Below are positions 744 to 60,548 of a stretch of 64,000 bases of DNA, in pieces. A program made the translations under genes and the position numbers. Position 1 is the first letter of the stretch. Each line of letters opens with the position of its first letter. This DNA comes from Saururus chinensis (lineage: Eukaryota > Streptophyta > Magnoliopsida > Piperales > Saururaceae). Below the pieces are notes generated by a model. That model did no database searches, was not told the DNA's origin, and saw only the letters and a list, made by a program, of their open reading frames with translations. The stretch spans positions 41,166,014 through 41,230,013 of the forward strand of contig CP141144.1 of assembly GCA_035235625.1 (NCBI GenBank), given 5' to 3'.

Positions 744-1039
744 ACACCACAAACACACGACACAATTTTAAGTGTAAAAAAAAGGGAATAACAAGCAAAA
801 ATTAACTAAGAAAAGAACTAAAAATAAAGAGAGAAAAGGGTCTTGCAAACCGAAGAGAAGCACTATGCTTGTCGATGTCCACTTGTGGCCACAAGTGTAG
901 AGAGCACGATCTTCAACTCCGCCTACAAGATCAAATTAAAAGAAGGTAAGAAACTAAGAATTCACCTAAAAACTAAAGTAAACTGAATCTAAATTAGATA
1001 GAATTATCCTAATACTAATTGAGTAACAAATCAACACTG

Positions 1040-1057
1040 TCCCCGGCAACGGCGCCA
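1040..1057 (-). other. Primer binding site, tRNA-Asp type
   Basis: The minus strand reads TGGCGCCGTTGCCGGGGA, the complement of the 3' end of plant tRNA-Asp(GUC) including CCA. It starts six bases after the LTR end (1064). It is the minus-strand primer site of the element whose gag is at 1-743. tRNA-Asp priming is known for the Athila lineage. Confidence 0.85.
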
Positions 1058-1063
1058 AAAACT

Positions 1064-2429
1064 TGATTGTTTATAATAAAACCCTTTGCAAGTGTATAAG
1101 GTAATTGTACTAGGATAAGTATTTAAGGGTTGTCGAACCTCAGGGATGGATGAATTATTACTAAATCTAAAGAGGAATTTGCTGATTAAAAACTAGAAAG
1201 AACTTAAACTTAAATTAAGTAAAGGAAAGAAATCAACTAGTTTAAAACAAGAGATTAATATGATGAAAATTACTTAGGAAATTGAATCCACTATAGAACC
1301 ATAACAATTCCTTAACTTTTAATTTAAATCTAATGTGAATATGAACAAGTATTCTCAGCTACAAGCTAGAATTACTTCAAAAAGAATCATTAATTAAATT
1401 CCAAGGCATGAACTATCTTCGACAATAGCATGAATCATCTACACTAAACTAGCTATAAGCATGACCCGTTTCATCTTAGTATAACTCATCCAAGTCATTA
1501 ATTATCTGAACATTAAAACTATTGTATGAACATCTCATCTAAACCACAAAAATTAGAATCGATGAAAATATCAAAACCACATCAATCTATCATCTACAAG
1601 ATAATAAATCAACATAGATTTGAATAAACATTAAAAACTCTTCCATTCAAAAGGAAATCCTTATTATACAATTGTCATCATCCACAACTGAGATCTAAAT
1701 TAAAAAGAAAAGAAACTGGAACTTATCAATAGTTTCATCAACTCCTAGGTAAAAGAATAGTCTAGCCTTCCATTGTAGAAGAAAGCACTTGAATATCCAT
1801 TGAAAGATTTGAGTTCTCTTCCATCTTCTTCTTCCTTTTCCTCTTCATAAAATCTACTGGAATCCCCCAATTTTAAGCCAAATATGTCTTTTTATAGGCA
1901 TAAGATCCGTAGGAAGAAGTCAAATATGAAAAGGATTGAAATTTGGGTCAAACAAGGAAATTGCGCGTTATGCCGTTCGGACGCCCTGCATGCCCATTCG
2001 AACGGCTACACTGTTTCTGCAATCTGGACAATTTTCCTGGACAGTCCATATTCTGTTCACTAAGTTTTTCTTCATGTCCATATTAATTTTTAACTTGTTT
2101 ATAACTCCGAAAAGTTGTCCAAATCACTTTAAAGCATCTCAAGACTATTTTGAATTATTTCCAAACATCGTCCAAGTACTTCGATAAGCGCACTTTACCT
2201 ACAAAACATAAAATATCATACTTTAGATATGTACAATATAATTAAAATCCCAACTTTGTTCAAATACATATCTAAACTACTAATAACTATAAAATTATTA
2301 ATAATTAAACTAAAATACTAATTACTATCTTAATCTAAATAAACTATAAATAACACTAAATTAACCTAATCTATACTATCAAATAAGGTAAAAAGGCATA
2401 TAAAATAGATATATATTTCATACTTATCA
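1064..2429 (-). repeat. 5' LTR of the Athila-like element
   Basis: On the minus strand the LTR starts TGATAAGT at 2429 and ends AATCA at 1064, giving TGAT...ATCA termini and 1,366 bp. The primer site follows directly. The same family is present as a solo LTR at 55049-56231, with long stretches matching by eye, for example around 1740-1870 and 55430-55620. The left-side partner LTR is outside the window, so no TSD can be tested here. Open frames in this interval are LTR noise. Confidence 0.85.
1972..2006. repeat. Hairpin inside the Athila LTR
   Basis: Arms GCCGTTCG (1972-1979) and CGAACGGC (1999-2006) are perfect complements around a 19-base loop containing CCCTGCATG. In the solo LTR at about 55292-55326 the right arm is intact, while the left arm differs by two C-to-T changes, both at CpG positions. 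Confidence 0.6.
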
Positions 2430-4500: not shown

Positions 4501-4571
4501 GGACCCAGGGAAGAATGCAATATGGTCCTCGGGTACGTGGAGCTAAACTGAAGGAAAATGATATTTTTTAC

Positions 4572-4706
4572 TTCACTTTCTCTATACCAAAAGCCTACTC
4601 ATGCTTTGATTGGATAAGAAAAAGTAAATCTCCATGTTATAGAATGTGACTTATCTTCTCTATCCAATCAAGAGGTGGAGTAAGCTTTTAATGTAGAAAA
4701 AGTGGA
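4572..4706. repeat. Short foldback (MITE-like)
   Basis: The first and last ~47 bases are imperfect inverted repeats: TTCACTTTCTCTATACCAAA... against the complement of ...GTAGAAAAAGTGGAA, meeting at TTGATTGGATA. There is no coding capacity. A TSD was not resolved. Confidence 0.6.
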
Positions 4707-5640
4707 ATAGGAATATCAGCTTCCAAATAGTTGACTGGTCTAGCATTGGCTTGCATGGCCACAACCAGATCTAGCGTTGACTGGTCTAGATCTAGCCACA
4801 TCTCTTGGCCATAGTTATTGTTGTCAAACTAAACTAATAGAATTTAGCTACTGTGAGCTATCAGCACAGATACTGTGCATGAAAATAAGCAATGAGGTAG
4901 GTGCAGGGAGAAAAAATTAAGATATTATGAGGTAAATATGAGAGGTTTTAAAGCCTTTTAGATGGGGGTAAAAAGAATGGGGTACTGAGGAGATTATTGG
5001 GGTATGTTTAGACACATTATTTACAAAATAGCCCTCAACTACACTATATTATTTAAAATATCACCAATATTTATTTGTGCAATTATGGAAATTTCCCTCC
5101 ACGCTAAGGGTAAAATTTTATAGCCCGGCCCACCTACCCAGCCCATAAAATTGCAAGCAAGAGAACAAAACAATTTTGGGCCCAATACTAAGATTGGGCC
5201 ATAAATTTTTTGGCCAACCTTAAATAGGGCAAGGGGCAAAAAGTTGGTAGGTCTATTAGGCCCTCTCACAAGTAATAAAATAATTATTTTTAATTTTTTT
5301 GATAATATGATGGAAGAAGTTGCATATTTTAAAGAAGTTTAGGAAATTTTAAGTTTGTATGTCATCATAATTAGTGTGAATGACCCACATGAAGGCCAAA
5401 GGCATATTCTCTCATTTTTTATGCGGTTAATTAGTGGGTCCCACCCATTGATTATAAATTTTTAATTAGAAATATTTTTAATAAATATATAAAAACACAA
5501 AAATAAAAAAATTTCTCATGCCCCAACTCGAGCCCACTTAGGGCAAGACTTTTGAAAGCCTGCCTAGGGCCAAGGCTAAAAAATGGGCTAGCAAGCTAGG
5601 GCCATGACATAACTCCAGGCCAACCTGGTAAGGCTGCTAA
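4707..5640. other. Non-coding stretch, nothing recognised
   Basis: AT-rich with GGCCCA-rich patches (5120-5240, 5520-5630). No gene, RNA or paired repeat could be supported. Confidence 0.4.
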
Positions 5641-5835
5641 TAAGTCGAGCCAGCTCATCAAGCTGAACAAGTTCGGCTCGATTTGACTCAAATTTGGCTC
5701 AACTCGAATGGAGCTCGACTCTAGTTCAGTTTGAATTCGAAAGCAAACAAGTCGATCTTAAACAGAGACCAACTTAAATCGACTCAACTCGACACCTGAT
5801 TGGTTCGACTCAAAATCAACTCAAAGCTTGACTCG
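5641..5835. repeat. GCTCGA/GACTCGA-rich terminal repeat of hAT type
   Basis: Starts near CTGCTAATAAGTCGAGCC and carries many GCTCGA/GACTCAA words. The same composition marks the two ends of the hAT element at 48827-49000 and 59240-59448, so this is probably a detached hAT end. The partner end was not found. Confidence 0.5.
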
Positions 5836-6482
5836 AATCAATTTATTATATATCACTTCTTATATATTATACTCATATTATATAAATTTCTTAACTTTTA
5901 CCTTTCATGTACCCATAATATTTTATATTATTCTATAAAATATATATACTATATATACATTAATATACAGTATATAATATACAATATAATATGGTATATA
6001 ATACCCATATTATGCTATTATATTTCAAACAAATATAGATCCTCCTACTAATAAAATTGAGAATGTAGGTATGATAAATTATTTTATTCCTATTCTACCC
6101 TTGTTCATCTGTATAATATTATTTAATTTTTAAATACTACCTTTAATCATTCTAATCCTAACAAATATAAATATGTAATTCTACTTGCATAATAAGCATT
6201 CTTAATTCAACCAATCATATTAGTTTAGAATTAGAGATCTAGTGAACTATATATAGATTTTGCCTACAAATATATCTAGTGAACTAAGTATAGATTTTCT
6301 TGTTGATTTCCAATTACATTGATTTTTCTTTTTACATGCAATCCAAACACTATGAAATATGTTATTGCTCAGGTCTAAATAGTTTGCTCATCATGAATGT
6401 TTTTGTAGTCACTAGAGTAATTAGAAATGAAATATGTGAATAGGAGTTGTTGTGGCTTTGGTGAATAGTTTAATTTTTGTAG
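5836..6482. other. AT-rich non-coding stretch
   Basis: Very AT-rich, including TATA-type runs at 5935-6000. The open frame here is a composition artefact. Nothing else seen. Confidence 0.4.
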
Positions 6483-6490
6483 CTTATTAT

Positions 6491-7208
6491 CATGGAAGGC
6501 CATAGCGATACGAATGAAAGTATCGATGTCTTTGGATATGGGTACGTATCAATGATATGCTTGGTACGTACCGAAACGGGTATTAACCCTTTTATAAACA
6601 TACAAAAATATTATAACTCATAATATATCATTATAATTCTTCTTTTATAGCATAATAAGACCGTAAAATATCGTATCAATAGATATGGGTATTCTAAAAT
6701 TAGTTCATTTGGAACCATACACTATTATGCTCTCCAACCCCTACAAATTATTGCTTCTTCTTTCCCATATTCAATGCTCTAAAATTAGTTTATTTAAAAA
6801 AAATAATATGCTTAATATGAATCTAAGTTATATGTTTAAATAAATGTATATTCGTGGAGCACTATATATAAAACAGTAATTATGTAAATTGCATGGACCT
6901 ACCCGTATTGATCACATATAACTTTAAAAATATTATTTTTATATAACAAAAACTTAAAAATTCAAATAAGTTGGGTTTGAATTGTGTTTTTGTTTTTAAG
7001 AAAAAATATTTTCAAAAAAATATTTTTTTTAATTAAAAATATTTTTAATTAAAAAATATATTTTTTAAATACAATATCAATACGTATCGGCTATATCGAT
7101 ATGGCATGGCTGATGCGCATCAGATTTTGGTGTGGGGGGCATACCACCCCCGTACCCGTATGGGTCTCAATTGATACGGGTACGTATCAACCAATATGGC
7201 CTTCCATG
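6491..7208. mobile_element. hAT-type MITE with perfect TIRs and 8-bp TSD
   Basis: The 718-bp unit begins CATGGAAGGCCATA (6491-6504) and ends with the exact complement TATGGCCTTCCATG (7195-7208). It is flanked on both sides by CTTATTAT (6483-6490 and 7209-7216), a perfect 8-bp target duplication, which is the hAT hallmark. Subterminal zones repeat GGTACGTATC-type words near both ends (6535-6580, 7150-7190), likely transposase-binding sites. The AT-rich interior has no coding frame, so the element depends on a transposase made elsewhere. Confidence 0.88.
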
Positions 7209-7363
7209 CTTATTATATAAAATTTTTTATATAAATAATATTAAAAAAATAACAATCAAAATAACAGAGAGATAAAATATTTATCAATATGGTGTTCCTT
7301 TTTGCTACGCAGGCACCGGCTAGGCACTAGCACCTGCATGGATTTTTTTTTAAAAAAGGAAAA

Positions 7364-7732
7364 ATTATTAAAATAATAATTTAAAAAAATATTTACCAAA
7401 ATAAACCACTTTGGGAAATATTTTCCAAAGTGGTGTTCCTTTTTGCCACGCAGGCGCCAACCAAGCAACTGGCGCCAACTTGAAACCAATTTCAAGTTGA
7501 CGAAACCGGGTCAACTTGAAAACGGTTTCGTCGTTTAGAATGACAAAATCGTTTTGAAACCAATTTTGTCGTTCTAAATGACGAAATCAACTTAAAAATT
7601 TAAAAAAAAAACCACGCTAGCGCCAGCTGCTTGGCTGGCGCTTGCATGGCAAAAAGGAACACCACTTTGGGAAATATTTCCCAAAGTGGTCTATTTTGGT
7701 ATATTTTTATTATTATTATTTTAATAATTTTC
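7364..7732. repeat. Long foldback element
   Basis: Arms of about 90-100 bases: 7364-7455 pairs with 7635-7732. The arms contain a further palindrome, TTTGGGAAATATTTCCCAAA at 7664-7683. Next to it lies TTCCTTTTTGCCACGCAGGCG, mirrored as its near-complement. The centre (7496-7580) holds several GACGAAA/TTTCGTC pairs. A related single end lies at 7225-7300, and an inverted copy of that end at 58927-59000. No protein is encoded. Transcribed, it would fold into a long hairpin. Confidence 0.7.
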
Positions 7733-12726: not shown

Positions 12727-15558
12727 ATGGCGGCAAATTTCCCGTCTTCTTCGCGACCTTATCTCTGCAAGAGGTCCAGAGCTTCTTCCGTTTCCCAATC
12801 GTGGGTTCTCCTCCTTTTCCTCTCCATCCTTGCCCCTCCGGCTCTTTCTGCTTCGTCTTCCCAAATTTCCTACTCCGAGCACTGCAATTCCGTCGTTTCC
12901 GAGTCCGCCGGCGTTGGAGCTCGAATTTTCCGGAAGGGGCTTCTCGAACTGAGAAACGGGTACTTCACCGGAGGCGAGCAGCTCTTCCCGGACGATCCCA
13001 GCGCCCTCTACTCCCTCCCCAAGTCCGTCCGCCTCATCTCCTCCCGCCTCGTTCGTTCCCATGCCGTTGGCATCTTCAAGGTCCAGACCACTCTCTTTCT
13101 TGTAGGCGGGAACGTCTACAACGAGTCGTTTGTCCGGTCCCGGTCCAACCGTTCAAGGATTGCCCACCGGAGGGGCAGAATTAGCTTCCAACTGAGGGGA
13201 TTCTGGTCTGAAGTTTCCGGTAAGCTCTGCCTGGTTGGCGCCGGTTATGGATACTCCAAGCAAGGTGACTTACTTGATCTCTCTGTGGTAGTCAAGCTTA
13301 ATTATGCCAATATTTCGACGATCAAAACCAGTTTAGTTTCTGGATCGATTGAGAGCTTGAGCCCTAGTGGTAATTCGAACTACTTTAATCCAATTTCCTT
13401 ACTGGGTTTTGCTGAAAGTGCTTATAACTATACCCTCTTGTCGGATGCCGAAAAGGGTTGTTCTAGTGTTGATGATGGTGTGCAGAAGCCTCTCAGTCTG
13501 CAGAAAGAAAGGAGCTTTTGCTCCATTCTTTGGGAAATAGCTAGTTATGGGTTTCAGTTAGAATACCCCAGTGATTGCAAAGTGGGAAAGTGTAGTCCTT
13601 TAAACGGTAGTGATGGATTCTTGCCTACTTTCATGTCTGTTAGTAATACTGAATGCATAGATGGTGCGAGATTGCATTTGAGATTGGGATTCTATAATGA
13701 TTCTACCATGGATCGTTACTATCATCCTCTGGCGCCACAGATATCGATGGTGAGTGAGGGAGTCTGGGATGATAAACAAAATCGGCTTTGTCTTGTGGCT
13801 TGCAGGATTGTCAATTTCGGGAATTCTCTGGCCGATGCTTCGGTTGATAATTGTACAATTGGTTTGTGCTTGTGGGTTCCTCAGGTCCTGTCAATTAAAA
13901 ACAGGAGTTCTATTGTGGGGAACATGTGGAGCAACAGAAAGGCTAACGAGTCTGGCTATTTTGGCAAGATTGTTCTTAAAAGCATGGAGAAGCAGTCTAT
14001 GCGCATTTCTGGTCTTAAGTATGAGTATACTCAGATGGATCTTGCTAGCAAATCATGCAAGAGGAAGGATGCAAAGAAAACAGGAGGCAAGAAATATCCG
14101 GATGGGCAATCTTATGGAGACATGAGGTTTGACTTATCTGTGAAAAATGCTGAAGGAAAAAGTGTATGGGGCTATTCCAACCCTCTGACATTGGGTGAAA
14201 GTTTCTATGAAAATTATGGCAGTGTGATGATAGATAGTTTAAGTGACAGCTCTGCTGAAAGTTATGGTACTGTTGTAGAAAGTTCTGCAAGTGAAGCATT
14301 GGCCCCAACCTCTACTCAAGTTGAAGTCATCAGACCAACCCCAGCTATTCTGAATGTCAGCTATTTCATAAGTTTTAGCTTATCGCCTGATTACAAATGG
14401 CGCAAGGGTTTGTCCTCTGCCACGCCTTCAGTTTCACAAACAACTGTAGGCATCTTTGCCGAAGGCATCTATGATTCCAACACTGGAACTCTCTGCATGG
14501 TTGGATGCCAGAATTTTGGTAACTCATCCTTCGACTGTGAGATTGCGATCAGTGTCCAATTTCCTCCGGTGAACCCAACTGCTGAAGACAAACTGAAAGG
14601 CACCGTTAGGAGTACCCGCAGAAACTCGGATCCTCTCTACTTTGAGCCTTTAGAATTGAATGGAAATAATTTTTTATATGAAGTTCAGGAAAAAGAATGG
14701 ATGTGGAGAATGGACATTGAAATGATCATGGTTCTCATCACACTCACTTTGGCATGCATTTTCATTGGCTTGCAGGTCTTCCATGTAAAAAAACATCCAG
14801 ATGTACTTCCCTCTATATCACTTCTGATGCTGCTTGTGTTAACTCTTGGGCACATGATTCCTTTGGTTTTGAACTTTGAGGCCTTCTTCAATCAACATAA
14901 TCGGCAGAATGTCCTCTCCTGGAATGGCGGATGGCTTGAGGTGAATGAGGTTATTGTGAGAATTGTCACAATGGTGGCCTTCCTCTTGATGTTTCGCCTT
15001 GTCCAGTTGGTCTGGTCTGCAAGATTGGCGGAGGGAACCAAAAGGGAGTTTTGGGTATTGGAGATGAAGGCTGCCCGCCTGTGCTTACCATTGTATATCA
15101 TCGGTGGTCTAATTGCTGGTTATGTGCACTGGAGAAAACCCGAAGTTTGGATTTTTGCAGAGTCCAGGCACTCTTTGTGGGAAGATCTTAGATCTTATTG
15201 TGGCTTGGTTCTTGATGGCTTTCTGCTCCCTCAGATTATGTTCAACCTATTCTCACTTTCAAACAAGAAGGCCCTCTCCCCATCTTTCTATGCAGGAACA
15301 ACTGTAGTTAGATCATTCCCACATGCATATGATGCTTATAGAGCTCATCACTATATTCCTCATTCTAATTCATCTTATATTTATGCTAATCCAAGTGCAG
15401 ACTTGTATTCCTCTACTTGGGATATCATTATTCCAATTGGAGGATTATTTTTCGCTGTGGTCGTTTATATGCAGCAAAGATGTGGAGGTGCTTGCATCCT
15501 TCCCTGGCGATTTAGACGTTCTTTGGAGTATGAGAGAGTCTCTGCTGTTAATGGCTAA
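12727..15558 (+). CDS. DUF2921 family membrane protein
   Basis: A single uninterrupted 943-residue frame. The ATG has A at -3 and G at +4. An N-terminal signal/anchor (WVLLLFLSILAPPALSA, residues about 26-42) leads into a long ectodomain with two similar halves: the motif KLCLVGAGY in the first and TLCMVGCQNF in the second, with FQLRGFWSE-type strands and many N-glycosylation sequons. About six membrane segments follow (near residues 662-684, 695-720, 738-760, 786-803, 826-845, 898-915), then a short cytoplasmic tail. This order is that of plant DUF2921 proteins such as Arabidopsis At1g52780 and At4g21700, which are also intronless. Related FLYING SAUCER-type proteins add a RING-H2 domain; none is seen here. 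The biochemical role is not established; a secretory or endomembrane location is inferred. GC content is higher than in the flanks, mainly in the first 600 bases. Confidence 0.92.
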   Translation: MAANFPSSSRPYLCKRSRASSVSQSWVLLLFLSILAPPALSASSSQISYSEHCNSVVSESAGVGARIFRKGLLELRNGYFTGGEQLFPDDPSALYSLPKSVRLISSRLVRSHAVGIFKVQTTLFLVGGNVYNESFVRSRSNRSRIAHRRGRISFQLRGFWSEVSGKLCLVGAGYGYSKQGDLLDLSVVVKLNYANISTIKTSLVSGSIESLSPSGNSNYFNPISLLGFAESAYNYTLLSDAEKGCSSVDDGVQKPLSLQKERSFCSILWEIASYGFQLEYPSDCKVGKCSPLNGSDGFLPTFMSVSNTECIDGARLHLRLGFYNDSTMDRYYHPLAPQISMVSEGVWDDKQNRLCLVACRIVNFGNSLADASVDNCTIGLCLWVPQVLSIKNRSSIVGNMWSNRKANESGYFGKIVLKSMEKQSMRISGLKYEYTQMDLASKSCKRKDAKKTGGKKYPDGQSYGDMRFDLSVKNAEGKSVWGYSNPLTLGESFYENYGSVMIDSLSDSSAESYGTVVESSASEALAPTSTQVEVIRPTPAILNVSYFISFSLSPDYKWRKGLSSATPSVSQTTVGIFAEGIYDSNTGTLCMVGCQNFGNSSFDCEIAISVQFPPVNPTAEDKLKGTVRSTRRNSDPLYFEPLELNGNNFLYEVQEKEWMWRMDIEMIMVLITLTLACIFIGLQVFHVKKHPDVLPSISLLMLLVLTLGHMIPLVLNFEAFFNQHNRQNVLSWNGGWLEVNEVIVRIVTMVAFLLMFRLVQLVWSARLAEGTKREFWVLEMKAARLCLPLYIIGGLIAGYVHWRKPEVWIFAESRHSLWEDLRSYCGLVLDGFLLPQIMFNLFSLSNKKALSPSFYAGTTVVRSFPHAYDAYRAHHYIPHSNSSYIYANPSADLYSSTWDIIIPIGGLFFAVVVYMQQRCGGACILPWRFRRSLEYERVSAVNG

Positions 15559-23118: not shown

Positions 23119-23833
23119 TGTAACTCCCTAACCCGGAAATCCCAACCTGGACCGGGGGTTAGATTGGAAGACAGAATTGGAGTGTGTTAAAATAAGCAGA
23201 ATAATGAAAACCGACTTACCAGAAGCTACTGACTCTGAGTGCGAGAGTCATAGCATTCATCCATGAACTGTAGAGCTTTAACATTTCGTTGTACATAGAT
23301 CAGAACAAACCTAATTTTATAACTAATTTGGATTGGGCCAACATTATCGTTCCATTGGTTGCCTACATACGTATTAGATACCATCTCTAACATTATTCCA
23401 ATATGATTGGATCCAAACGTAGTTCTGCCTAATGGCTAATACATGCATCAGGCATCACAAAATCATATACGTTAAAATACATATATCCTTATATCCGAAT
23501 AATCATTCGGAATCAAATAAAAATCTTATAAATCATCAGAGTAAAACAGAAGCCAATACATCAGTGAAATACACATCTCATATAGGTGAGCAGAATACTA
23601 ACAAAACCACACATCCAACTATATCATAGAGTGGAGCAAAACACACAACAGAGCATGTTGGATCATATCAGATCCTATTAGATAATATCATATTTCATCC
23701 GACCCTACTGATCACATCAGATAATATCGGAGTATATTAGATCACAATAGAGCATTTTAGTGTAATTTGGATTACCACAGAATATATCAAAGTAGATCGA
23801 ATAGGAACATATCAACATATATCAAATCATAGC

Positions 23834-23880
<47 letters not shown>

Positions 23881-24623
23881 TAATTATTATATTACTAATT
23901 AAGATGTGCATTCATATAAATCATATTAAATTAGATGGTTAGAAAATCATACTTCCCTGTAGTTCCAAAAGTGGCAACATTCGGAGCTACTTGTTTCCTC
24001 AGGGTGTCTTCCTTTTTAGGTCTGGAGATGGCAGGAAAAACCTCTTCTAACTCCATAATACTTTTCTCTTTTCGTGCCCATAAGCTATGGACAGAACCTC
24101 CCCTTTACCCGAGATACTTTTCTCACAATACACCCATAGGCGACAGACAGAATTTCCCCTTACCCAAAGATATTTCTCGCTTTTCCTGCCCGTAAGTGGC
24201 GGATAGAACCTCTCCTTACTCGGAGATACTTCACCATTCTTGTGCTTGTAGGTAGCAGACAGAGCCTCCCCTTACCTGGAGATACTTTACCATTCTTGTG
24301 CCCATAGGTAGTAGACAGAACCTCCCTTTACCAGGAGACACTTTACTCTTCCCGCTCCCGTAGGCGGTGCACAGAACCTCCCCTTTCCTAGAGATACTTT
24401 ACCCTTCCTACGCCCATAGGCGGCTGACAGAACCTCCCCTTACCCAGAGACATGTTACCCTTTCCATGCCCGTAGGCGGCTGACAGAACCTCCCTTTTCC
24501 GGAGATACTTTACCCTTTCCGCGCCCATAGGCGGCGGACAAAACCTCCCCTTTTCCGAAGACACTTTACCCTTCACATGCCTGTAGGTGGCAGACAGAAC
24601 CTCCCCTTACCCCAAGACGTTTC
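23119..24623 (-). repeat. LTR family B, minus orientation, truncated
   Basis: Starts TGTAACTCCCTAACCC at 23119 and runs antisense to the end half of LTR B at 56232-57118. Shared blocks include AATCATTCGGA, the ATACATATATCC region and GCATCAGGCATCACAAA. It continues into the ~62-bp minisatellite at 24080-24615 (CATAGGCGGC.GACA.AACCTCCCCTT units), also present in the other copy at 54770-55045. It stops abruptly at 24623 where LTR D begins. Confidence 0.7.
23836..23878. repeat. (TA)n microsatellite
   Basis: About 20 TA units within the LTR B copy. Confidence 0.9.
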
Positions 24624-26101
24624 TGTAAGGACACTCATTTTTGAACCGATTTATTTTAATGTAATTTATCGGTTATTGTGTAGTTTAAGCTTTTTTTATT
24701 TAAATTTTGTGGTTTTCAAAAATAAATGAGATTTCTAAATGTTTTAAGCAAAAATAACTCTACTTTTATGAGTTTTAAGTATTTTTTAGTCAATTTTGAA
24801 GTTTTGGGATTTTTCTGATGTTTCACTAATTTTCCAAAAATTAGGGTTTGGCAAAACCCCCCTGTGGGCCCCACCAATAAAATTAGGATTTTTTGACCAA
24901 ATTGACCCATGCATAAACACAAGCTTATACAAAAAAAAATTTAGAATTTCCTCATATTTAATTAGTGCTCAAATTATTAAAATACTCATTTTTAGCCAAA
25001 AATTCTATTTACACCCCATTAGTTCATTAGGTATACCCCAAGCTCTACTATAAATAGAAAGGGTTGAGCCATTTTCCATTTGGGAATAGGCTGGGAGAGG
25101 GTAGTTAAGGCCTAATTCCCCAATTAGGCCCGAATTATAAATGGATTAAGGTATGTTCTTTAATCAAGCCTAAACCTTAGGTTTTCTCTTAATTCATTCT
25201 TAATCGTGACTTTAATCATGGTTTTAATCCATTTTGAAAGCATACAACTACTAATTTACCTCTATTCTCCAAGCCTTAATCTTCAAAATCTCATTTTTAA
25301 GCTTCTAAAACCCGAGATCTAGTGTTTACTTTTAGCTTTTCAAAGCAAAATCAAGATTAATAGTATGTTAACTTAAAATCATGTTTTTGGAAGTTTAGGA
25401 AGCTCAGGGGAATTGTAGTACTCTGATTGAGATTATATATTTATCTTCTCCTGGTTCATGGTTTGCTACTGTCTTGCAGAGCAGCTTTGGTGTGAACTTT
25501 TATGATTCACTGATTTTGATTCTCCTACTGGGTATGAAAATACTCATGTTCTTTTTCTCTAATCCTCAGGCACTCCAGGGACTTCCGTGGGGCCTAGCTC
25601 GAGAGTTGCTTAGCATTTGAGGATACTCTTTTTGGATTGCAGGTCAATTTTTGATTCTATTGTTCCTTGATTAATTTATGTCACGATCTGTTGTAAATAA
25701 ATTTTGAAGTACATGTATTAAGTGAGGTGAGCGCTTTTACATGTATTATTTTGGACTTGTACATGGACTGTATTATTACTTTCGACTGTTATAGAACTTG
25801 TACCCAGCTATGCTTGGGAAAATATATAGAAAACCCATGGCCATAGCAATTTTGTCTTTTGTTTGTTATTCATGCCGGGGGATGAATGAACTACGAGCTT
25901 TGAATGTTTTATCGTTGTTATATCTTTGTTTTGAGTTGAAAAGAAAGTATTGAGATGGATTTGATACAAATGAATGAGAATTATAAAAATGTTTTTCACA
26001 GGTTTCGTATTTTCATCAATTTTCACCAATTTACAGTCGTTATATTATAAAATTTTTGTTTAAATTTCATAAAAATTATTTTGAAAACCCTGGGTGTGAC
26101 A
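24624..26101 (+). repeat. LTR family D, plus orientation, short form
   Basis: Begins TGTAAGGACACTC and ends CCCTGGGTGTGACA. A TATA-like ACTATAAATAGAAAGGG lies at about 25048. The same family sits in reverse at 50972-54388, where its complement reads TGTAAGGACCCTC...GGGTGTGACA. This copy is 1,478 bp against 3,417 bp and lacks the region holding the GGATGTATCTCTAA repeats. The flanking five bases (GTTTC left, CATAC right) differ, so no TSD supports a simple insertion here. Confidence 0.72.
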
Positions 26102-48570: not shown

Positions 48571-50971
48571 TTTGCTCTATTATGGATGTTGTATCGTTCT
48601 CTTTGGATGTCAATAACATTGCAGTTGCTCATCTTAGGAGCATATGCTATTGTATTATGTAGTCAACATTTAAATTGTCACTTGGGAGGCATATACAGTC
48701 CAGTTCTTGCATGTTAGCAGTTCAATTGTCACTTGGGAGGCATATCCTTATATCTTTCGGGAGAATTATAGCAGTTGATAATAATCTAGAGAGAGATTAA
48801 GGTTTAATAGGATGAGTATTGTTACGAGTGTCAACGAGTTGAGCTGAGTCGAGTATTGAGCTTATTCGGCTTGAATTTGAACGGTTGAAGTTCAGCTCGA
48901 AGCTTAAATAGGCTCAAAATTTTCAACTTGAGCTCAGCTTGAACTTTAGTTCAAATTATAATAAGTGAATCTTGAGGCTAGACTTGAATTAGGTTCGAAC
49001 TAAAAGATAAAAATAATATAGATGAAAATCTAAACTACATGAAGTATCATATATATTTATATGTTTTTAATTTTAAATACTAATAAATATATTTTAACAA
49101 GTATTACGATTACACCTTGAACATCGACTATATAGTCACTAGGCATCTAACTCTATAATCACTAGAAAAGAAGAAAATTATAACAAATAAATTTGTTACA
49201 TATGCTTAAAAAATACAACATTACCATTTTCCTTTTTTTATATGCCTATAGTCACTAAAAAAGCTACAAAAAATAAAAACTCACTTAGACAACATTACCA
49301 TCTACTTCTTTATATCTCCTTTTCTTTACTTGCTTATAAATAACTTGTAAAGGAACTATTTTTTAGCCTTAATATGCTTCTAAAGAATTTCTGAGTACAT
49401 ATAAAAAGATAAACATTTTGTAAGTTGAGGATGGTCCTTGTGTATTGCTTCAACTTTTGAAGAATTTTCTACTCATTCTTTTGTAAACTAAGGTTGATCC
49501 CCCTAGTGTTATGCTTCTTTTAGAAAAGTTTTTTAGTATAATAGTCATATATTTAAAAGTAGTTTAATTTTTTGTGATATCATTTTGACTCTCAGTCATA
49601 TATTTATAGATTTATTTGGTTTTTCAATTAAACTAATTTTAGTGCATTATAAAAAACTAAATAGAGCTATTAATTTAAGACAGATGGAGCATATTAGTGT
49701 TTGTGTTTGTAATATTTTTATTTTTAAAAAATATATATTATACATGGAAATTGTATTTCTATTACAATTTAACGAGAATATATATCATAAAAAAAATTAT
49801 ATGAGTTTGAGCTCAAACACATCAACGTGAACTAATTTATCATGGGTCATCAGATTGAGATCCAATGGTGCAAGGAGATATAAACTAATCTACCTCCTGA
49901 GTTATGTGCGTTATTGGATCAAAATCTGAGGGCTCACAATATCGAGGCTCACGCAGTCGTGAGTGAGCCTTAGCTCATATAAACAGGTCTCATATATCAT
50001 ATATGATATATAGTATTGGTATATATGTGATTATATGTTATTTTGTATACTTTATCTGTCCTAGATTAATAACTCCATTTAATTTTTCAAAATGAACTAA
50101 TCAAATGGAGCTATGATGTGCCGACATAGGCATAATCGATATTAAGGAGGTTCACGCAGTGAAAGGAGAGATACAAGGAAGAAAAAAGAGAAGTTCTGAG
50201 TAATTCCAATAGCATAACCATAAAACAAAGAAGGGGATCGCCCTTCTTCCTACGGAATCGCACCAAGCTTTGCCAGGTCGGCCCAATTCCCTTCTCTTTT
50301 GCTGATGACTCCAAGTTTGAGATGTACATGAAGACTTCTCTCAACCCGGCCTTCAATAAAATCTCGCACACCATATTAAGAAGAGATATTTTCAAGCTAC
50401 ACAAAGAGTACAAATAGAGCTTACAAAAACCCTAGAAACAATTTGGATAAGATTGCTCTAACTTCCAATATTTGGACTTATAATGACTCATTTTTTTACT
50501 ACGCCTAACCTGAGGGGTTAAGGGAAATTTTATAATTTTTTGATAAGTGTTAGGGGCTTCCAAGGGATGAAATCCTTGCATATGGGCAGAGCTTAAAGTA
50601 ACGAGCATATTGAATCGAAGAACATGTGAAATGGAGGTTAGGAGTGAAAATTTTGACATCGGAAAACATGCCACATAGGAGGGTCTCACTTGAAAAGTGC
50701 ACAATAACCTACCCACGTGTGGTCTATTTTCAGAGAGCTCATCGATACGAGTCCATCGGTACCAAGAATATGTGATTCCGACTTCATGGTAGGAAGATAT
50801 CGCATTTTGAAAATGGGATATTATTGGAATAAAATAATATGAGAAAAAGTCTAGAAAATGGGAATAATGATAAAATAGACAACGTTAGTGGCTGACACAA
50901 GCGTGGGTGTCAACTGTGCCGCATGACGCGGGGGCCTGCATCATCGCAGGCCGTGCGTCGCAAGCTGCACA

Positions 50972-53900
50972 TGTCACACCCCGGTGATGCCCGACCCGAG
51001 CCGAACCCGGTCCAGGGGCCGGTCAAGCGCGCGGGGGCGACGAAGTGAAAATTGAGAAATGATCTAGCGGAAGACTTAACCCTAACCACGGGCGATTAAC
51101 AGCAACACGGAGTGCGCACAATCCTTTGAGCAAGAGTAAATAAAAGGGAAGAAAAAGGTGTTGCTTATCACAAAGTAAACAACAATCTCAAACCCACAAA
51201 CTTAGTTAAGTAAAGCCCACACCGGCTCAAAATAAGTCATAATCATCACAACTGTAGTATATGACATAAATCCAAAACAAGAACCCTACACAAAGGTTCG
51301 AACATAAAGCATGAAACAAACGCAGGTAAGTCACTCAACGATCTCCATCATCACACCCAAGCTACCTCTGACCTTTCCTCAAAGAGGCAATCCTGTCCGT
51401 CTGCGTGTCACACCACGCAGCCCCAAATCAAAACACAAAAGAGGGGTGAGTTTTAACACTCAGCAATGGTTTTAATATCACTGTCAACGTAGAAAATACG
51501 ATAGCTTAGAAATGAGATCGTTCAGATCAAAGATTTACATGGTGCATCACTTTCTGATCACACATTCATATCACCTAACACTGCATCATAATGCATAATT
51601 CAACCTGCATGAATGTATCTCTAGCATACATATTCCCACATGCATTCACATCATAACCAATCCTGCATGGATGTATCTCTAACATACATATTCCCACATG
51701 CATAACATCATCACAATCTGCATGGATGTATCTCTAACATACATATTTCCACATGCATTTTATCATCAAAATCAACATGCATGGATGTATCTCTAACATA
51801 CATATTCCACATGCATAACATCATCACAATCTGCATGGATGTATCTCTAACATACATATTCCACATGCATAACATCAAAATCAACATGCATGGATGTATC
51901 TCTAACATACATATTCCACATGCATAACATCAAAATCAACATGTATGGATGTATCTCTAACATACATATTCCCACATGCATAATGTCATCACAATCAACC
52001 TCTATCAAGGAGTAATCGTACATTAACGTCACATAGACGGGAGCATAGACAAGGCCATGAAGGCGTGTCATGGTCCAAAATTCTACACAAGAATTCAAGA
52101 AAGATCGGGGTTGTCAATCCGTATCTTTGCTCGCCACTGACGATCCTGGCCAAGGATGTCCCATTCTCACACAGAGAATCTAGAGCAGGGGTGTTCGCCC
52201 AGGGACATCTCCTGCGGAGGGAAGAGCCCGAGTTCTCACACAGAGAACCCTAGAACACGTGGTAGCGGGGTGCACACGGCATACCACACTGGATTCTCAG
52301 GGTTCAGATGACACACATAATAATATTCTCACATATCCGCAAGACAAGTACACAACTCGTCCCCACATCATTCCATTAAACAAGACTCAACCCGGGGAGT
52401 GCACGTTCCACACAAGAACTTCAAATCGTTCCACACAGGAACTTCAAATCAAAATATGTCCTTTCGGACCAATCAACTTGCGATTAATCCACGACCGATC
52501 AATCCGGCACACAATTTCATCACATTGCATCCAATCAGTCAAATTCGATTAATCACGATGAAGCCTCACTTGGAAATCCATTTTCATGATGCGTGCAGCA
52601 TGGTACATGCGTGGGCAAAGCATACATGAATCCTAATCCATGATATGTGCGCTCATCAGCCCCTAATGCATCATTCCTACTCACAATGTCAAGCTTCAAC
52701 ATCATCATTTAACCCCCACATGTGTGTGTGTAACTAGTAGAAGCCTTCCACATAATGCATATCAACATACTTGAAAATCAACTCACTACCACACTACACA
52801 TGTGAATTTCTATCTAAACATGAATTCCAGCGGAAATCATAGTAGAAGAATCGTCGAAATCATAGCTAAATTCAAAACTCAACCACAAAGGTTAAAACAC
52901 ATATAACATCACTCATTTCATCATTGAGTCATGGCATTCACCCACATCCACACACCACTAACCACAATCTATCATGACAAATCAGTCCAACAATGATTGT
53001 AGTCCTACTGAAAACATGCTTAACCAAAGGGAAACAACTATTCATAATTTCAAAATAACGATTCCAACATCATGCCACAAAACATAAGTCATTCCACCAT
53101 CTCTAAGCATATATCTCAACTCCATAAACTCAATAGCATGCATTTCCAGTAGCCTAACATAGCTTAAAATACTCCACATTCATATAAAATTGGCAAGCTA
53201 AAGTGGAATCATCAAAATAGACATCATACACACAACACACAATTTCCTGTGTAGCCGATCGATCGCCCTGCAAGGCCGATCGATCGCCAACACGGCAGAA
53301 CAGTCATCTTCTTCCTTTCGCAAATCCAAACCGAAACACCATAGTTAACACTTCAAATCCACATCTAACACCCTAATCATCATCAAAAGTCCTCCTTGAC
53401 TTCCAGAATATCAAACCAAACCATAATAATGCAAAACCCTAAGAAATCGGGATTAAATAATTTCATTTTCTAATCTTACCATTAACACACTAAATCAAGC
53501 AAACCATTTCGAAATAAGCCAAAAATGGAGAGTTTTACCATGGATAAACAGAGATTTCGAAGACCCATTACCTCAGCACTTGATTAAGCTCGGATTGAAG
53601 AGTCACCCTTCTTGAAATCCTTGAAAACACAATGAGTTTGAATTAAACTCTAATAGAAATCGATTTACCCAAGAAATCCCTAATTAAACCTTAGATCTAG
53701 GGCTTGTTGGTAGTAAAAATTGAATTTTGAATGTTAGGGTTTATAGTAAAACACAAATCAGTAGCTTTTGATGGTCAAAAATGAATTGAATCAAGGGGAA
53801 AATGGTAGATTTGGAAGAAATTAAGAGAAAAGCCAATTATCAGTGCTTAATTAGAGTAAGCTTACCTTAATCGGCTTCTAATTCGGGCCTAAGTGGGGAT

Positions 53901-54388
53901 TAGGCCAGCCCTCCTTCCTTAGCCTATTCCCAAAAATGGAAATGGCTCTGGTTTGCCCTTTTATAGTATGGGTTGGGGTAGGCATAGGTAAGTTTTGGGG
54001 TGTAAATATGAAAAGTAGGCTAAGAGTGGGTATTTTGCAAATTTAAGCACATTTTAAGCCTAATAAAATTCTGAAAACTTTTTTGGGACCTTAAGTATAT
54101 GTCTAGATTCATTTGACACAAAAATAAATTTTTTTGACAGTGGGGCCCACAGGGGTCCCGCCAAAACCCTAATTTTTGGGAAAATAGTGAAAATTCCGAA
54201 AAATCTCAAAAATTCACATTTGGTTTAAAATCACTTAAAACCACTAATATTGAAGTTAATTTTGGTTAAAACTATCACAAACACTATTTATTTATGAAAT
54301 TACCGAATAAGATCAGAAAACGCGTAAATCTCACGATAACCCATAATTAACGAAAAACAAAACCGGTTCAAAGATGAGGGTCCTTACA
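50972..54388 (-). mobile_element. LTR family D, solo LTR, long form
   Basis: Plus-strand termini TGTCACACCCC...GGGTCCTTACA. The TSD GCACA is perfect (50967-50971 and 54389-54393). Orientation is minus, judged by the TATA-like ACTATAAAAGGGC near 53958-53970 and the match to 24624-26101. The 3,417-bp unit holds the GGATGTATCTCTAA tandem repeats and a doubled GCCGATCGATCGCC motif at 53257-53290. There are no internal genes. Confidence 0.88.
51591..51985 (-). repeat. Minisatellite inside LTR D
   Basis: About seven units of 53-60 bp, each with ATGTATCTCTAACATACATAT followed by CCCACATGCAT or CCACATGCAT. Units differ in the ACATCATCACAATC or ACATCAAAATCAAC spacer. It produces Met/Cys-rich repeat frames that are artefacts. 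Confidence 0.85.
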
Positions 54389-54769
54389 GCACACGATGCA
54401 TAGCGCACGCATTTGTGGTTCGTTTCATGCATTCCCGGGCATTCCTCTATAAATTGGAATTCCATGCAGACATTTGGAGGTGTTTTCTTCTGAGTCTATT
54501 TTCATCCGTTTAAAAGTTGTTCCTAACTAATTCGATGGTGATTTATGCAATGGTATGGTCTATTCCTCGAGTTGGCATTGCTAAAAGGGGGAATGACTTG
54601 AGGCAAGAGGAGGCGCTATCAGCTACCCTAGTGCCTCAAAGAGAGAGAAGTGGCTCGGAGAATGAGGACGCTCTGTCCTCTATCATCTGGCTTCATCAAG
54701 AGAAGTGGCCCAAAGTAGGGGAGGCTTCATCCTCCACCAAAGGGCCACATAGTGTGAGAAACTTCTTCA

Positions 54770-55045
54770 GGTAAGGGGAGGTTTTGTTCGTAGCTTATGA
54801 GCACAAAAAGAGAAAAGAGTTTCCGCGTAAGGGGAGGTTGTGCCCGTTGCCTACATGCACGTAGAGAGAGAAGTGTCTCCGGGTAATGGGAGGTTCTACC
54901 CGTTGCCTTCGGGCGTGGAAAGTGTGAAGTATCTCCAGGTAAGGGGAGGTTTTGTCTGCCGCCCAAAGGCGCAGAAAGTGAGAAGCACCTCTCGGTAAAG
55001 GGGAGGTTTTGTCCGCTGCCTACCGATGCAAGAATTGAGAAGTGT
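54770..55045 (+). repeat. ~62-bp minisatellite inside LTR B
   Basis: About five units of the form GTAAGGGGAGGTTTTGTC...GCCTACNGNGC...GAGAAGTGTCTC. The antisense copy at 24080-24615 has about nine units. Confidence 0.75.
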
Positions 55046-55048
55046 CTC

Positions 55049-56231
55049 TGATAAGTATAATTTGTACATTATTTTATCCTTAATTATTCTATTGTCTAGT
55101 CTTATTTAAGAGTTAGTATAGTTTAAATAATTAGAAATTAAATTTAATTAGGTTAGGAAAAGCTTGTATGATGTTTTGAAGTAAATTGGCTTACTTATAT
55201 TAATTTTGTGCAGATTCTTCATTGTCATTCGAATGGGGTTTAATGGCGTTCAATCAGTTAAAGGTGATTTGGAAAAAAAAAGACAGTGCATCTGTTTGAA
55301 CGGGCATGCAGGGCGATCGAACGGGATAATGCACAATTTCCTATTTTGACTCAATTGTGAGTCCTTTTCATAATAGACTTTATCCTATGATTCCTATGCC
55401 TATATAAAGACATATTTGGCTTGAAATTGAAGGATTTTGGTAGATTTTTTGAAGAGAAAAAAGTAGAAGAAGATGGAAGATCATTCAAAGCTTTTAATGG
55501 AGATCAAGAGCTTTCCTCTACAATGCAAGGCTAGACTTTTCTTTTACTTAAGAGTTGATGAAACTATAGATAAGTTTCAGTTTCTTTTCTTTTAAATTTA
55601 GATCTTAGTTGTGAATAATGACAATTGTATGACAAGGATTTCCTTTTTAATAGAAGAGCTTTTCATGTTTATTCAAATCTATATTAATTTATTATCTTGT
55701 AGATAATAGAATGATGTAGTTTTGATATTTACATTGATTCTAATTTTTGAGATTTAGATTAGATAGTCATGCAATAGTTTTAATGTTCATATGATTACTG
55801 AATCGGATGAGTTATACTAAGATGAGATGAGTCATGCCTATAATTTAGTTTAGTGTAGATGATTCGTGCTATTGTCGAAGATAGTTATGTCATGAATTTA
55901 ATTAATATTTCTTTTTGAAGTAATTCTAGCTTGTAGCTGAGAATATTTGCTCATATTCACACTAGATTTGGATTAAAGGTTAAGGAATTGTTATGGTTCT
56001 ATAGTGGATTCGATTTTCTAAGTAATTTTCATTATATTGATCTCTTCCTTTTAATTTAGTGATTACTTCCTTCACTTAATTTAAGTTTAAGTTCTTTTTA
56101 GTTTTTAATAAATAAATTCCTCTCTTAGATTTAGTAATAATTCATCTGTCCTTGAGGTTCGACAACCCTTAAATACTTATCCTAGTACAATTACCTTATA
56201 CACTTGCAAAGGGTTTAATTATAAAAGATCA
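55049..56231 (+). mobile_element. Athila-family solo LTR
   Basis: Starts TGATAAGT and ends AGATCA, 1,183 bp, with the perfect TSD GTCTC (55044-55048 and 56232-56236). Homologous to the LTR at 1064-2429 read in reverse. No primer site follows it, so it is a solo LTR left by LTR-LTR recombination. Confidence 0.9.
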
Positions 56232-59200
56232 GTCTCTGGGTTTGGGCATAAAAAGTGAGAGAAAAGCCCTGAGAAAGGGGAGTATTTGTATGTCGCCTTC
56301 GGGCACCATGAGAGAAACGTTCCAGAGTAAGAGAAGGCTCCATTCACCATCTCCAGATCTGAAGGGTAGGATGCCCTAAAGGAAAGAGCAACTCCGAATG
56401 TTGTTACTTCCAAAGCTATAGGGGAGTAAGTATTTATGACCTTCCGATTTAATATGATTATATGAATGCATGTGCTAATTAAGATATATGTTATGCTTTG
56501 ATCTTATGTATTTTAATATACTATGCTTTGATCTGATCTACTTTGATACAATTTGTTATGATATGATATGGTCGAATGAGATCTAATATGATATGATGTG
56601 ATTCACCCTGATGTGTTCTATTCCGCTCTATGGTAGAGTGGGATGTATAATTCTGCTAGTGTTTTGCTCTGCTCTGTGATAGAGCGAGATATGTGATTTT
56701 GTTGTTTTAATAGTTTGTGTTTAACTTCGATATTTTATGAGATTTTTGTTTAACTCCGAATGATTTATTCGGATATAAGGATATACATATTTTAACGTAT
56801 ATAATTTTGTGATGCCTGATACATGTAATAGCTATTAGGCAAAACTACATTCGGATCTGATAATATTGGAATAATGTTGTACATGTTATCCAATATGTTT
56901 ATAAGCAACCAATGACATGACAACATTGGCCCGATCTAAATTAGATATAAAAATAGGCTTATTTTTACCTACGTACAATGGAGCTCTAAAGTTCTGTAGT
57001 ACGTAGATGAATGTTACAGTTATTACACTCAAACTCCATCGCTCATGGTTGGTTTAAATTTTTTGGAACCCGAATTTTGGGTTACCGAAACCCTCGGACC
57101 ACGTGTCGGGGTGTTATAGGACTAGTATAAAAAAATTGCTATGCATATGTTACCACTCATTTTATAGATGAATCATGGACATTAAATAAAAGAATAATAT
57201 ATCTTAACATTCTAGAATATCCTCATACAGCTTCAATTATTAAAAAATCATGGATGTATGCTTTAAATGAATACTCAATTAAAGATAAAATTATGTTTAT
57301 TACTTAAGATAATGCATCTAATAATAATTTAGTGGTAGAACTTTTAGAATCTCATTGTGATCACATTGGTCTAATTGAATCAAATAGATTTCATATTAGA
57401 TGTACATGTCACATAGTTATTTTATTTGTTCAAGATGGTTTAAATATAGTCAAACTTAGTATTCAATTAATTAAAAGTAATTTCTTACATATTACCTCTT
57501 CATGTTACAAGGATTTAAAAACTTATGTAGATTGCATGGTAGGATATATACAAAATTTCAATTAGATGTTCATCATAGGTGGAATAACACAGATTTAATG
57601 TTAAAATCATGTCAATGATTTGAAAGTTTAATTATATGTTGGGCTACAGAAAAGTTACCTCATCTAGGACTTAATGAAGGTTATTTTTCCATATCTATTT
57701 GTTTCATACAATTTCTATATGTTTTTCATAATATTACTACAAATTTATCTAGAATTTACTATCATACTTCTTGTTCAATTCTAAACTACTTGTTTGATGT
57801 AATTGATGCATTTGCACAATATAGAGAGGTTAGAGCATTTGTATATCTCGTGAAGGAAATGAAAACAAAATTTAATAAATATTGGTCTCATATCCCTATA
57901 ATTTATTGTTTATGGGTTGTAATGGATCATAAGGTTAGATTAGAAGGTGTACAAATTTAAATTTAAATTTATGGTATACGTGAGAACGTAGTCCCTATGC
58001 CGATGAAAATGATACTCTATATTAAACTGTAAAAACTACCTTATGTTCTTTATACAATATATATGAAATATAATTCATGAGTCAAGACAGAATCAATCAA
58101 CTTTTTCTTCTGTTCATATGCATATTCCATGTAACATTAAGTCTTGGATTTTACTTAATAGCATAAACAAAAATTTAGTGTTAATAGTAATGAATTATCT
58201 AACTATTTAAATGCTGATTTGAACCTCATTATCTCCTCCAAACAACTTAGTAATGTGAATGTTTTAACTTGGTGGCAGACACATGGAAGTAACTATTTTA
58301 TATAGTTTGTCTTAGCTCATAATTTACATAACACCCTTAATGTCCACAATAGCATCGGAATTTGCCTACTTAGTTAGATGTTAGACGAAAGGCAAAGTCG
58401 ACTAACACCGAATGCGGTGAAGACATGTATTTGCTTGAAAAATAAGTTGGACACAAAAAAGGGCATAAGTTCCCCATTTTGAAAAGGAAATAGGATAAAA
58501 TATAAAAAATTGGACAATAAATAATTAGTTAATAATGTAATTGAAGGTTTCATATTATAATTATAAATTATGGATAGGTAATTGCATGTCAACTTGGTTG
58601 AGATGTACTCATTCTATAGTAATGTAATTATGACACTCATTTTGTGAGTTACAATTCTATTGTGTAATTTTATGAATTATTTGATAAATATTTTTTAGAT
58701 TTTTTATGTTAGTTTTTTAAAAAAATTACACGGATGGTTGGTTTAGTGGACTTGGTTGACTGGCCCGTGGGCAAGTCCAAGCCCAACTCCCCCCCCTTTG
58801 GGCCTGGCTTGCCTAATCATCAAGCCCCAAAGAGTTCAGGCCTACCCCTAACTACAGCAGAGGAGTTAGGGGCAAGGCAACAATGGCTGAGAATATGGTG
58901 ATGGTAGTGGCAGCAACAAACCGAAATTAAAAAAAAAGGAACACCATATTGGGAAATATTTTTTCTCTATGTTATTTTCGTAATTATTTTTTTTAATATT
59001 ATTTATATAATTATATTTATTATATGAGATATTTGAATAACATTAGTTAAATTTTTGGTGACAAATGAAATTCTTTTGTAGGGTATTTATTAACTCTTAT
59101 TCTAACCATAGATTTTGAAATAATATTTACAACTTTAATAGAATAAAATTATGTTTGTTATAATTTTTTTTATTTTTGTAATATTGGTATGATTCTCTAA

Positions 59201-59448
59201 ATTAATATGGATTTTTATAGAAAAAATAGTTTGGGTTGAAAATGGGATTCGAGCTCAATTCAAACATAGGTTTGAGTTGATATAGTATGTTTTCGAGCTC
59301 GAGCTGAAGTCGAGTTTCGAGTTTTTTAGTCGAATCGAGCTCGAGCCAGGCATCGAGCTGTTCGATCGAGCTTGAACTGAGCTTTCAAAAATCGAGCTCG
59401 AGTCAAAAAACCTGAAAACTTGGTTCGACTCGGCTTGTTAGCACCCTT

Positions 59449-60548
59449 ACAAGCAACCACAACAAATATCTCTATCTAGTCTTCCTAATCTCATTTTGAG
59501 AGCTTTGATAATTTTTTTACCCACAAAACACTCTCTTTGCAGTCAATTGTTGGAGCTTGCTAATATTTAAAATACCCTAAGAGCTGAGATGAGCTCCACT
59601 TGTACTCCGCCTTGAATGGTGATGAAACTCATCTCCATACTAGTAGTAAAAGGGTAAAATAGTAAATAAAGAATTATTTAACCTAAATAACATATGGAAT
59701 GTGAGAGACATTGATGGCACCAGTGTCAAGGATATAAACTTGAGTACTACTTACACTGTCTTTCATGATGAATTCTTGCATCTTCCGCTCATTCCGGTAG
59801 TGTTTACAACATTAGTTTTCTCCGATCGCTCATCTAAATAACAATGGGTGTATTCTTCAGTGTGAAAGTTCTAAAAATCTACGAGTTCATACAAGATTTC
59901 TAAGACATCAAAACTTGATGAAATATTTATAAAACTGATGAAAAAGGCAAGAGCCTCCAGATTGAAGCCAAATGTTGGACACATATACAAAATATGAAAA
60001 AGTTTGTTACAAATAAGCATTAAAAAAATGCCTTTCGAGAATAACAGCTCGTTGGATGCATTGAAAATTGCCCAGAAATACATGACACCGAACATATAGA
60101 TACATGCGTTATTGTGACAAATGTAGTTGTATTTAATTTTTGAAGCCATAAACAATTAATTTCTTATGACTGGTATATATAATTTCCACATGACACACCC
60201 TGTTTTAGCACGAAGGAATCAGCTTATATATCTCGCACCATGACGATCGTCTATGGGACATTGAAATCTACCCCACATTGTTAGTTGCTTGCTATTCTTA
60301 CACTTTTACATACCAATCTAAATATACAGGAGTATAGTTACTCTCTCCGTTCAAAATCAACTAATTTAAGATAGTTGTTAACTTGGGACACAGGGAGTAT
60401 TTGTTAATTAATACCCACTATAATTAATTTTAAATTAAGTGACTAATGTTTGGTAAATTATGCACAATATCCATAGTTGAAAGCTGTGACCTAAATGAAT
60501 ATCATGTCATCTTTAGTCCCTAGGGTGACAAGCCCATATGTATGGATT
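59449..60548. other. Non-coding stretch between the hAT end and a foldback
   Basis: AT-rich. Short open frames without domains. Nothing recognised. Confidence 0.4.

Follow-up and report, generated by a model that had tools for sequence, protein, structure and literature searches.

The systems closest to the cluster of nested transposable elements considered here, which lies in a 64 000-nucleotide stretch of the Saururus chinensis genome (C5:41166014–41230013, hereafter the window), are nested retrotransposon clusters and two lineages of long terminal repeat (LTR) retrotransposons, Athila and Del, the latter being the same as Tekay. REANNOTATE reads the order of insertions from their nesting and bounds the ages of solo LTRs through their hosts; in one run on A. 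thaliana, 3619 nested insertions were inferred (PMC2672092). A nested, heterochromatic habit is described for Athila (PMC545599). The Del chromoviruses are reported to have LTRs of 1143–4831 bp and to follow rules at their attachment sites, namely a U3 start like TGTAACACCC and a U5 end of type A, with GGG at positions −8 to −10 plus positions −1, −2, −3 and −6 (PMC4029996). Solo LTRs are attributed to recombination between LTRs, and a regression across fifteen species has an intercept of 2.69 (PMC7251063); for two relatives of peanut, the solo to full-length ratio in inverted regions is 2.3–3.2 (PMC6189423).

The interval 48823–59449 of the window is very probably a layered relic of four insertions, in which each retrotransposon has been reduced to a solo LTR. 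The outermost layer is a decayed hAT element on the plus strand, the transposase gene of which is interrupted by an LTR of a family denoted B; the B LTR, in turn, contains an LTR of a second family, D, and, separately, an Athila-like LTR. The region 48600–59800 was read directly, every junction was verified by script, and relatives were sought in the 516-Mb genome (11 contigs). Each of the three LTR units is directly abutted on both sides by an exact 5-bp target site duplication (TSD): GGACT (50474–50478 and 57119–57123) for B (50479–57118, plus strand), GCACA (50967–50971 and 54389–54393) for D (50972–54388, 3417 bp, sense on the minus strand, TGTAAGGACCC...GGTGTGACA, with tandem units of ~55 bp at 51601–51999), and GTCTC (55044–55048 and 56232–56236) for the Athila-like LTR (55049–56231, 1183 bp, plus strand, TGATAAG...GATCA). 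The two inner LTRs divide B into a 5′ part (50479–50971) and a 3′ part (56237–57118), both recognized through relatives, and a middle piece (54394–55048) with a 56-bp tandem array (54773–55049) and, at 54448, the sequence TATAAAT, which we take to be a candidate TATA-like promoter motif.

The ends of the units were not picked to suit the TSDs but are fixed independently by relatives as family ends, so that each 5-bp match has a chance probability of about 1 in 1024. The relatives of B mostly begin at an identical base, with TGTAACGACC or near, and end with GGTGTTACA or near; those of D start with TGTAAGGACC (TGTAAGGACCC) and end with CGTGACA; and 19 of the 39 other scored Athila-type copies align over positions 1–1183, with three more aligning over at least 1177 bases, at 86–90% identity. 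The focal B starts with TATAA, where relatives most often have TGTAA, and ends with TTATA (GGGGTGTTATA against mostly GGTGTTACA in relatives). Because most relatives are of the form TG..CA, these ends are taken as mutated, and non-canonical TA..TA termini were rejected for B; three relatives (L009, L011 and L024) likewise start with TA. With a TSD abutting each side, there is no room for a primer-binding site (PBS) or polypurine tract (PPT), and all three LTR units are solo, as the sequence-only reading of the window had proposed. The nested structure that it described, with D and the Athila-like LTR lying separately inside B, is genuine and was correctly read. Its attribution of readable TSDs to all four components holds for the three LTR units and fails for the hAT element, where no 8-bp TSD abuts the ends.

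The fragment hosting B is termed a hAT relic on its transposase, not as an intact member of the group. To the left of B, translation of an N-terminal remnant (50163–50478, plus strand) gives NPAFNKISHTILRRDIFKLHKEYK, with KIALTSNIWT in a second frame; the remnant has 54.8% identity over 42 amino acids to a counterpart in locus L011. The right flank carries on with CYAYVTTHFIDESW and, later, with an RNase-H-like stretch; these central and RNase-H-fold remnants (57124–57960, plus strand) are recognized by a profile match and by comparison with L011. The match is to PF14372 (hAT-like RNase-H) at 57619–57957, with an E-value of 6.7e-6 and a score of 26.7 bits, 0.3 below the curated cut-off of 27, and the other hAT pieces that were scanned against Pfam, the N-terminal remnant among them, matched no hAT family. 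A C-terminal hAT remnant (58186–58302, plus strand; SNELSNYLNAD...LTWWQTHGSNYF), which has no counterpart in the other loci compared, presumably resembles the hAT dimerisation region. An ~80-bp segment in the right half of the element (58933–59012) is matched by copies at 7227–7303, 7363–7444 and 7651–7729 of the window, perhaps a small repeat.

That B sits inside the transposase gene, another point of the earlier description, is borne out. The insertion point, TTGGACT|AGTATA, splits the transposase codons TGG-ACT-AGT, and a hAT relative in L011 shows the empty site, being uninterrupted across this point (60.6% identity over 396 bp). The best stretch, from ATTGCTCTAACTTCC to GGACTAGTA, has 28 of 31 bases identical, with only four right of the junction; the alignment continues past it at ~65% overall (91/139), and the matching transposase pieces in L011 lie ~100 bp apart.

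Excision of the inner units in silico gives a coherent B. With both inner LTRs taken out, along with one copy of each of their TSDs, 2030 bp remain, a length bracketed by the B relatives free of large insertions or deletions (~1.86–2.4 kb); among the outliers, L011 has 1.1 kb, and L013 and L026 are longer via inserts. The proposed check, to excise, rejoin and align, bears out the nesting for B as it does, through L011, for the hAT gene. With the second LTRs and B fragments of L010, L014, L017, L018, L019, L024 and L026 set aside, the 20 loci of 10 kb that were mapped around B copies contain 21 main ones. In 18 of the 21, the parts flanking the D site are less than 0.4 kb apart; L010 and L026 have a D-type insert of their own at the D site of B, and L025 lacks the second part. 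Athila matches inside B are found in 0 of the 20 loci (the sole match, in L020, is outside B), and single alignments span the Athila site in nine of the 20 when probed with joined flanks of 200+200 bases.

These comparisons bear on the alternative of a compound B LTR, of which D or the Athila-like LTR would be an integral part and which would require fewer insertions. D-type sequence does occur in other B copies (L010, L028 and L026) and abuts a B-family LTR at position 24624 of the window, but the contiguity of most B copies at the D site and the lack of Athila sequence in them make such a compound LTR extremely improbable; the other B copies do not show either insert as belonging to B, the outcome that the sequence-only reading had named as its refutation. 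Moreover, the D of L010 has a different TSD (AGCCG) and an orientation opposite to that of the focal D, the D-type sequence in L028 and at 24624 lies elsewhere, in the tandem array, and D has an independent presence in the genome, with 1377 sites carrying its exact 18-base 3′ end. Around 20 sampled D copies, the flanking sequence covered (a few hundred bases 5′ and 100–1500 bases 3′) has a single match to B, in one copy: 59 bp, well removed from the D end. A preference of D for inserting into B was also considered and is unsupported within these limited flanks. Three D-type inserts in B (focal, L010 and L026) lie within or close to the GC-rich, variable sequence that precedes the TATA-like motif, too few cases for a pattern. 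The B-family LTR just mentioned is the second one in the window (23251–25331, minus strand); the D-type LTR start that abuts it at 24624 is 69% identical, and no matching TSD is present at 26094, the sole candidate for its far end.

Several observations weigh against the reading as four clean insertions. With the same 200+200-base probes, a single alignment spans the D site in only one of the 20 loci (L018); when the probes are shortened to 120+120 and 100+100 bases, alignment at the D site of L018 and the Athila site of L009 is confined to the right side. The stretch of B around the D site, just upstream of TATAAAT at 54448, is GC-rich and changes fast, so that the empty state of this site in other B copies rests on the short distance between flanking matches, and the Athila site lies in the 56-bp tandem array, which makes the register ambiguous. 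Relatives without the insert are thus found for all three retrotransposon events, with weak point alignments for D and the Athila-like LTR. At the outermost layer, the terminal inverted repeats of the hAT element (TACGAGTGTCAACGAG / TAAGGGTGCTAACAAG) are imperfect and weak (61% over 76 bp), and 48823–59449 are its best limits. A scan for 8-mers with at most two mismatches around both ends gave four pairs, none abutting the ends; because there is no 8-bp TSD, the boundaries of the hAT element and its own insertion are less certain, although decay could explain the missing duplication.

Relatives bearing a PBS are found for all three retrotransposon families. B is classified as an LTR retrotransposon on the paired LTRs, PBS and PPT of two copies: L019 consists of an LTR, PBS AATGGTATCAGAGC, a 2919-bp internal region, PPT and a second LTR, and L014 (with L070) of an LTR, PBS AATGGTATCAAAGC, an internal region, PPT and an LTR. 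The LTR pair differs by 17% in L019 (1661 positions) and by 25% in L014 (2279 positions). The internal region of L014 has no open reading frame (ORF) of at least 80 amino acids on either strand, and the forward frames of L014 and L019 have none longer than 76 amino acids, the limit being 70 for L019. Because they lack long ORFs, both copies look non-autonomous or decayed, and, with such short internal regions, family B is probably non-autonomous and looks similar to large retrotransposon derivatives (LARDs). Its LTR ends fit the Del pattern at U3 positions 3, 6, 9 and 10 and at the type A U5. Nesting within the family is seen in L024, where a B LTR (4529–6774; TSD AGGTT) lies inside the 56-bp array of another B copy.

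D is likewise assigned to the LTR retrotransposons, on the paired LTRs, PBS, PPT and predicted pol domains in L071, L072 and L079. In a full-length D, the LTR end is followed by GAGTTTT and PBS TGGTATCGGAGC, an internal region of ~3.7 kb and a PPT before the next LTR; the internal region, scanned in pieces, matches protease, reverse transcriptase, RNase H and integrase. The primer sites of both B and D are, presumably, of the initiator-Met type. Both families appear Del/Tekay-like by their LTR ends, with D departing in one respect: it has the type A U5 end but G at U3 position 6. Among the matches of the D pieces, which include SH3_Tf2-1 and integrase, there is no chromodomain, the end of the ORF lying outside the scan.

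Alternatively, the D LTR might not be a solo LTR at all but an entire non-autonomous element, able to insert by itself and to generate a 5-bp TSD. All 21 resolved copies, out of the 25 sampled, are indeed flanked by TSDs, and TGG occurs within 0–6 nucleotides of the end at 149 of the 1377 sites, against 143.7 expected by chance. However, the real PBS starts 7 nucleotides past the LTR end, just beyond that pattern, and 43 ends carry it; furthermore, three LTRs on C1 (26328813/26335851/26342881) form an LTR-internal-LTR-internal-LTR array with 7.03-kb spacing, PPT and pol domains. A PBS-less mobile D unit is therefore ruled out for the family by the C1 array and the 43 PBS-bearing ends, and this explanation is hardly credible. 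The array (L071–L073, C1:26328800–26343370) has a tandem form such as unequal recombination would produce.

The copies of D appear more alike at one end of the LTR than over the rest. The top 40 of the 3067 first-look candidates are 98–99% identical over the last 449 bp, the stretch that was used for their selection, and the nearest copy is 99% identical over that same stretch. Divergence from the focal D is 3.2–4.0% in five copies compared over the last 1.9 kb and 3.4–6.9% (mean 5.3%) in eighteen copies compared over the first 350 bp, the eighteen differing among themselves by a median of 4.6%; the D of L010 is 96.3% identical (3.7% different) over the whole LTR. Gapped BLAST identities of 89–96% include changes in array length. 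The notion of D as a brand-new family was rejected on these differences, roughly 3–5% outside the selected last 449 bp; by sequence divergence, D would be the youngest family in the nest, yet not brand new. The closer likeness of the D copies (window 50972–54388 and L030–L054) in the last 449 bp (98–99%) than in the first 350 bp (~95%) is partly a matter of query selection and perhaps also of conservation or gene conversion.

The Athila-like assignment of the third LTR is based on a tRNA-Asp-type PBS and a predicted gag. A second copy in the window (3–2014, minus strand) is the 5′ part of an Athila-like element: only the last 950 bp of its LTR align to the focal one, TGGCGCCGTTGCCGGGG follows 6 nucleotides after, at position 1057, and a gag frame of 255 amino acids then runs to the window edge. 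The window thus holds ~1 kb of Athila-like internal sequence, with gag only; the gag ORF matches PF03732 (Retrotrans_gag) with an E-value of 1.7e-20, and TGGCGCCGTTGCCGGGG is presumably a PBS of the tRNA-Asp type, an Athila feature. A decayed PBS of the TGGCGCCGTTGCCGGGG type is found in L083. Between the Athila-like LTR (55298–55324) and D (53255–53281), there is a 27-nucleotide inverted match (85%), a palindromic motif like CGATCGATCGG shared by different lineages.

The solo state of all three LTRs within 10 kb had been taken to imply repeated LTR–LTR recombination in one spot. As far as the nest itself goes, three of three solo units agree with a local recombination hotspot, but the same state prevails in B and, overwhelmingly, in D elsewhere in the genome. 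Of 19 other B copies (L025 and L028 lie outside this classification), six are solo with an exact TSD, three are solo with one mismatch, three lie in longer elements and seven are unresolved, so that six to nine of the 12 resolved copies are solo. In the top-scoring sample of 20 D copies, all 18 resolved ones are flanked by TSDs, 17 of them exactly and L052 once a mutated end is shifted by two bases, with L046 and L049 unresolved; five further copies from the list of exact ends give two exact TSDs, one with a single mismatch and two unresolved. Genome-wide, a PBS follows only 43 of the 1377 exact D ends (3.1%, 95% interval 2.3–4.2%), and among ten C1 ends chosen for a same-strand neighbour, a PBS is present in three and in none of the other seven. 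If each PBS stands for one element with two LTRs, ~1291 of the 1377 ends remain, or ~30 per full-length element, a ratio that counts exact ends and the exact PBS heptamer only, so that any full-length copy whose PBS has mutated escapes it, and the 1291 may include LTRs that belong to broken elements. Since solo is the usual state of both families, the three solos need no local hotspot, solos of B and D being expected wherever these families occur; a hotspot is accordingly a very unlikely explanation, and the implication that this spot is special is unsupported. A conversion of D to solo LTRs that is unusually fast, perhaps soon after insertion, is a tentative and somewhat doubtful proposition, its odds lowered because the D copies differ more than their last 449 bp suggested. 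It builds on the ~30 other LTRs per full-length copy, all of them TSD-flanked solos in the resolved sample, in a family with 3.4-kb LTRs and a divergence between copies of only ~3–5%.

The sequence-only reading also held the order of events to be fixed. Nesting does fix that of hAT, then B, then the two inserts inside B, but says nothing about the order of D relative to the Athila-like LTR, its neighbour within B. Divergence alone suggests the order hAT, B, Athila, D. The nearest relatives have identities of ~65% around the insertion point for hAT (one relative), 80% for the first piece of B, 90% over 1183 bp for the nearest scored Athila-like copy, and 96–97% over 1.8–1.9 kb for D (96.3% over the whole LTR, in L010), such identities being a rough clock that depends on family history. 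An earlier insertion of D, with the Athila-like LTR second, is compatible with nesting alone and gains a little from the D copies not being extremely alike beyond their last 449 bp; on the assumption that identity tracks age, the more distant nearest relative of the Athila-like LTR makes it unlikely.

In the history that these comparisons point to, a hAT element settled first, and its transposase gene has since decayed. A Del/Tekay-like, probably non-autonomous element of family B then entered the transposase gene at TTGGACT|AGTATA. An Athila-like element entered the tandem array of 56-bp units in the B LTR, and a Del/Tekay-like D element entered antisense to B, in the GC-rich stretch ~55–60 bp upstream of TATAAAT, probably in that order. 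In each retrotransposon, the paired LTRs most likely recombined with each other, so that a single LTR remained between the two TSD copies. Elsewhere in the window, an uninterrupted ORF of 943 amino acids (12727–15558) with DUF2921 domains (PF25333 and PF11145) is a likely host gene.

Compared with the clusters described for REANNOTATE, the nest shows no difference in kind: it is a single four-layer case in another genome (PMC2672092). It is a correct but ordinary cluster, ordinary in view of the 3619 nested insertions that the REANNOTATE run inferred for A. thaliana alone (PMC2672092). With three exact TSDs, an interrupted gene and insert-free relatives, it nevertheless makes a clean test case for annotation software. 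The likeness to Athila lies in the window copy, with its tRNA-Asp-type PBS TGGCGCCGTTGCCGGGG and Retrotrans_gag domain. With respect to the Del (Tekay) rules as published, B fits both U3 and the type A U5, and D fits the type A U5 but departs at U3 position 6, where C is replaced by G (PMC4029996); the full-length copies of B differ from Del further in their short internal region, devoid of long ORFs.

The sole lead to emerge is the solo excess of D. The plant ratios of ~2–3 in the published surveys pool families (PMC7251063, PMC6189423), whereas D stands at ~30:1 by end counts; since those ratios are pooled, single families with ratios like that of D may well exist. The many similar solos of D, set against its few full-length copies, would allow a test of the effect of LTR length and age on the pace at which solos form, a pace that old families usually blur; fast conversion, if true, would make D well suited to measuring LTR–LTR recombination rates in a plant.

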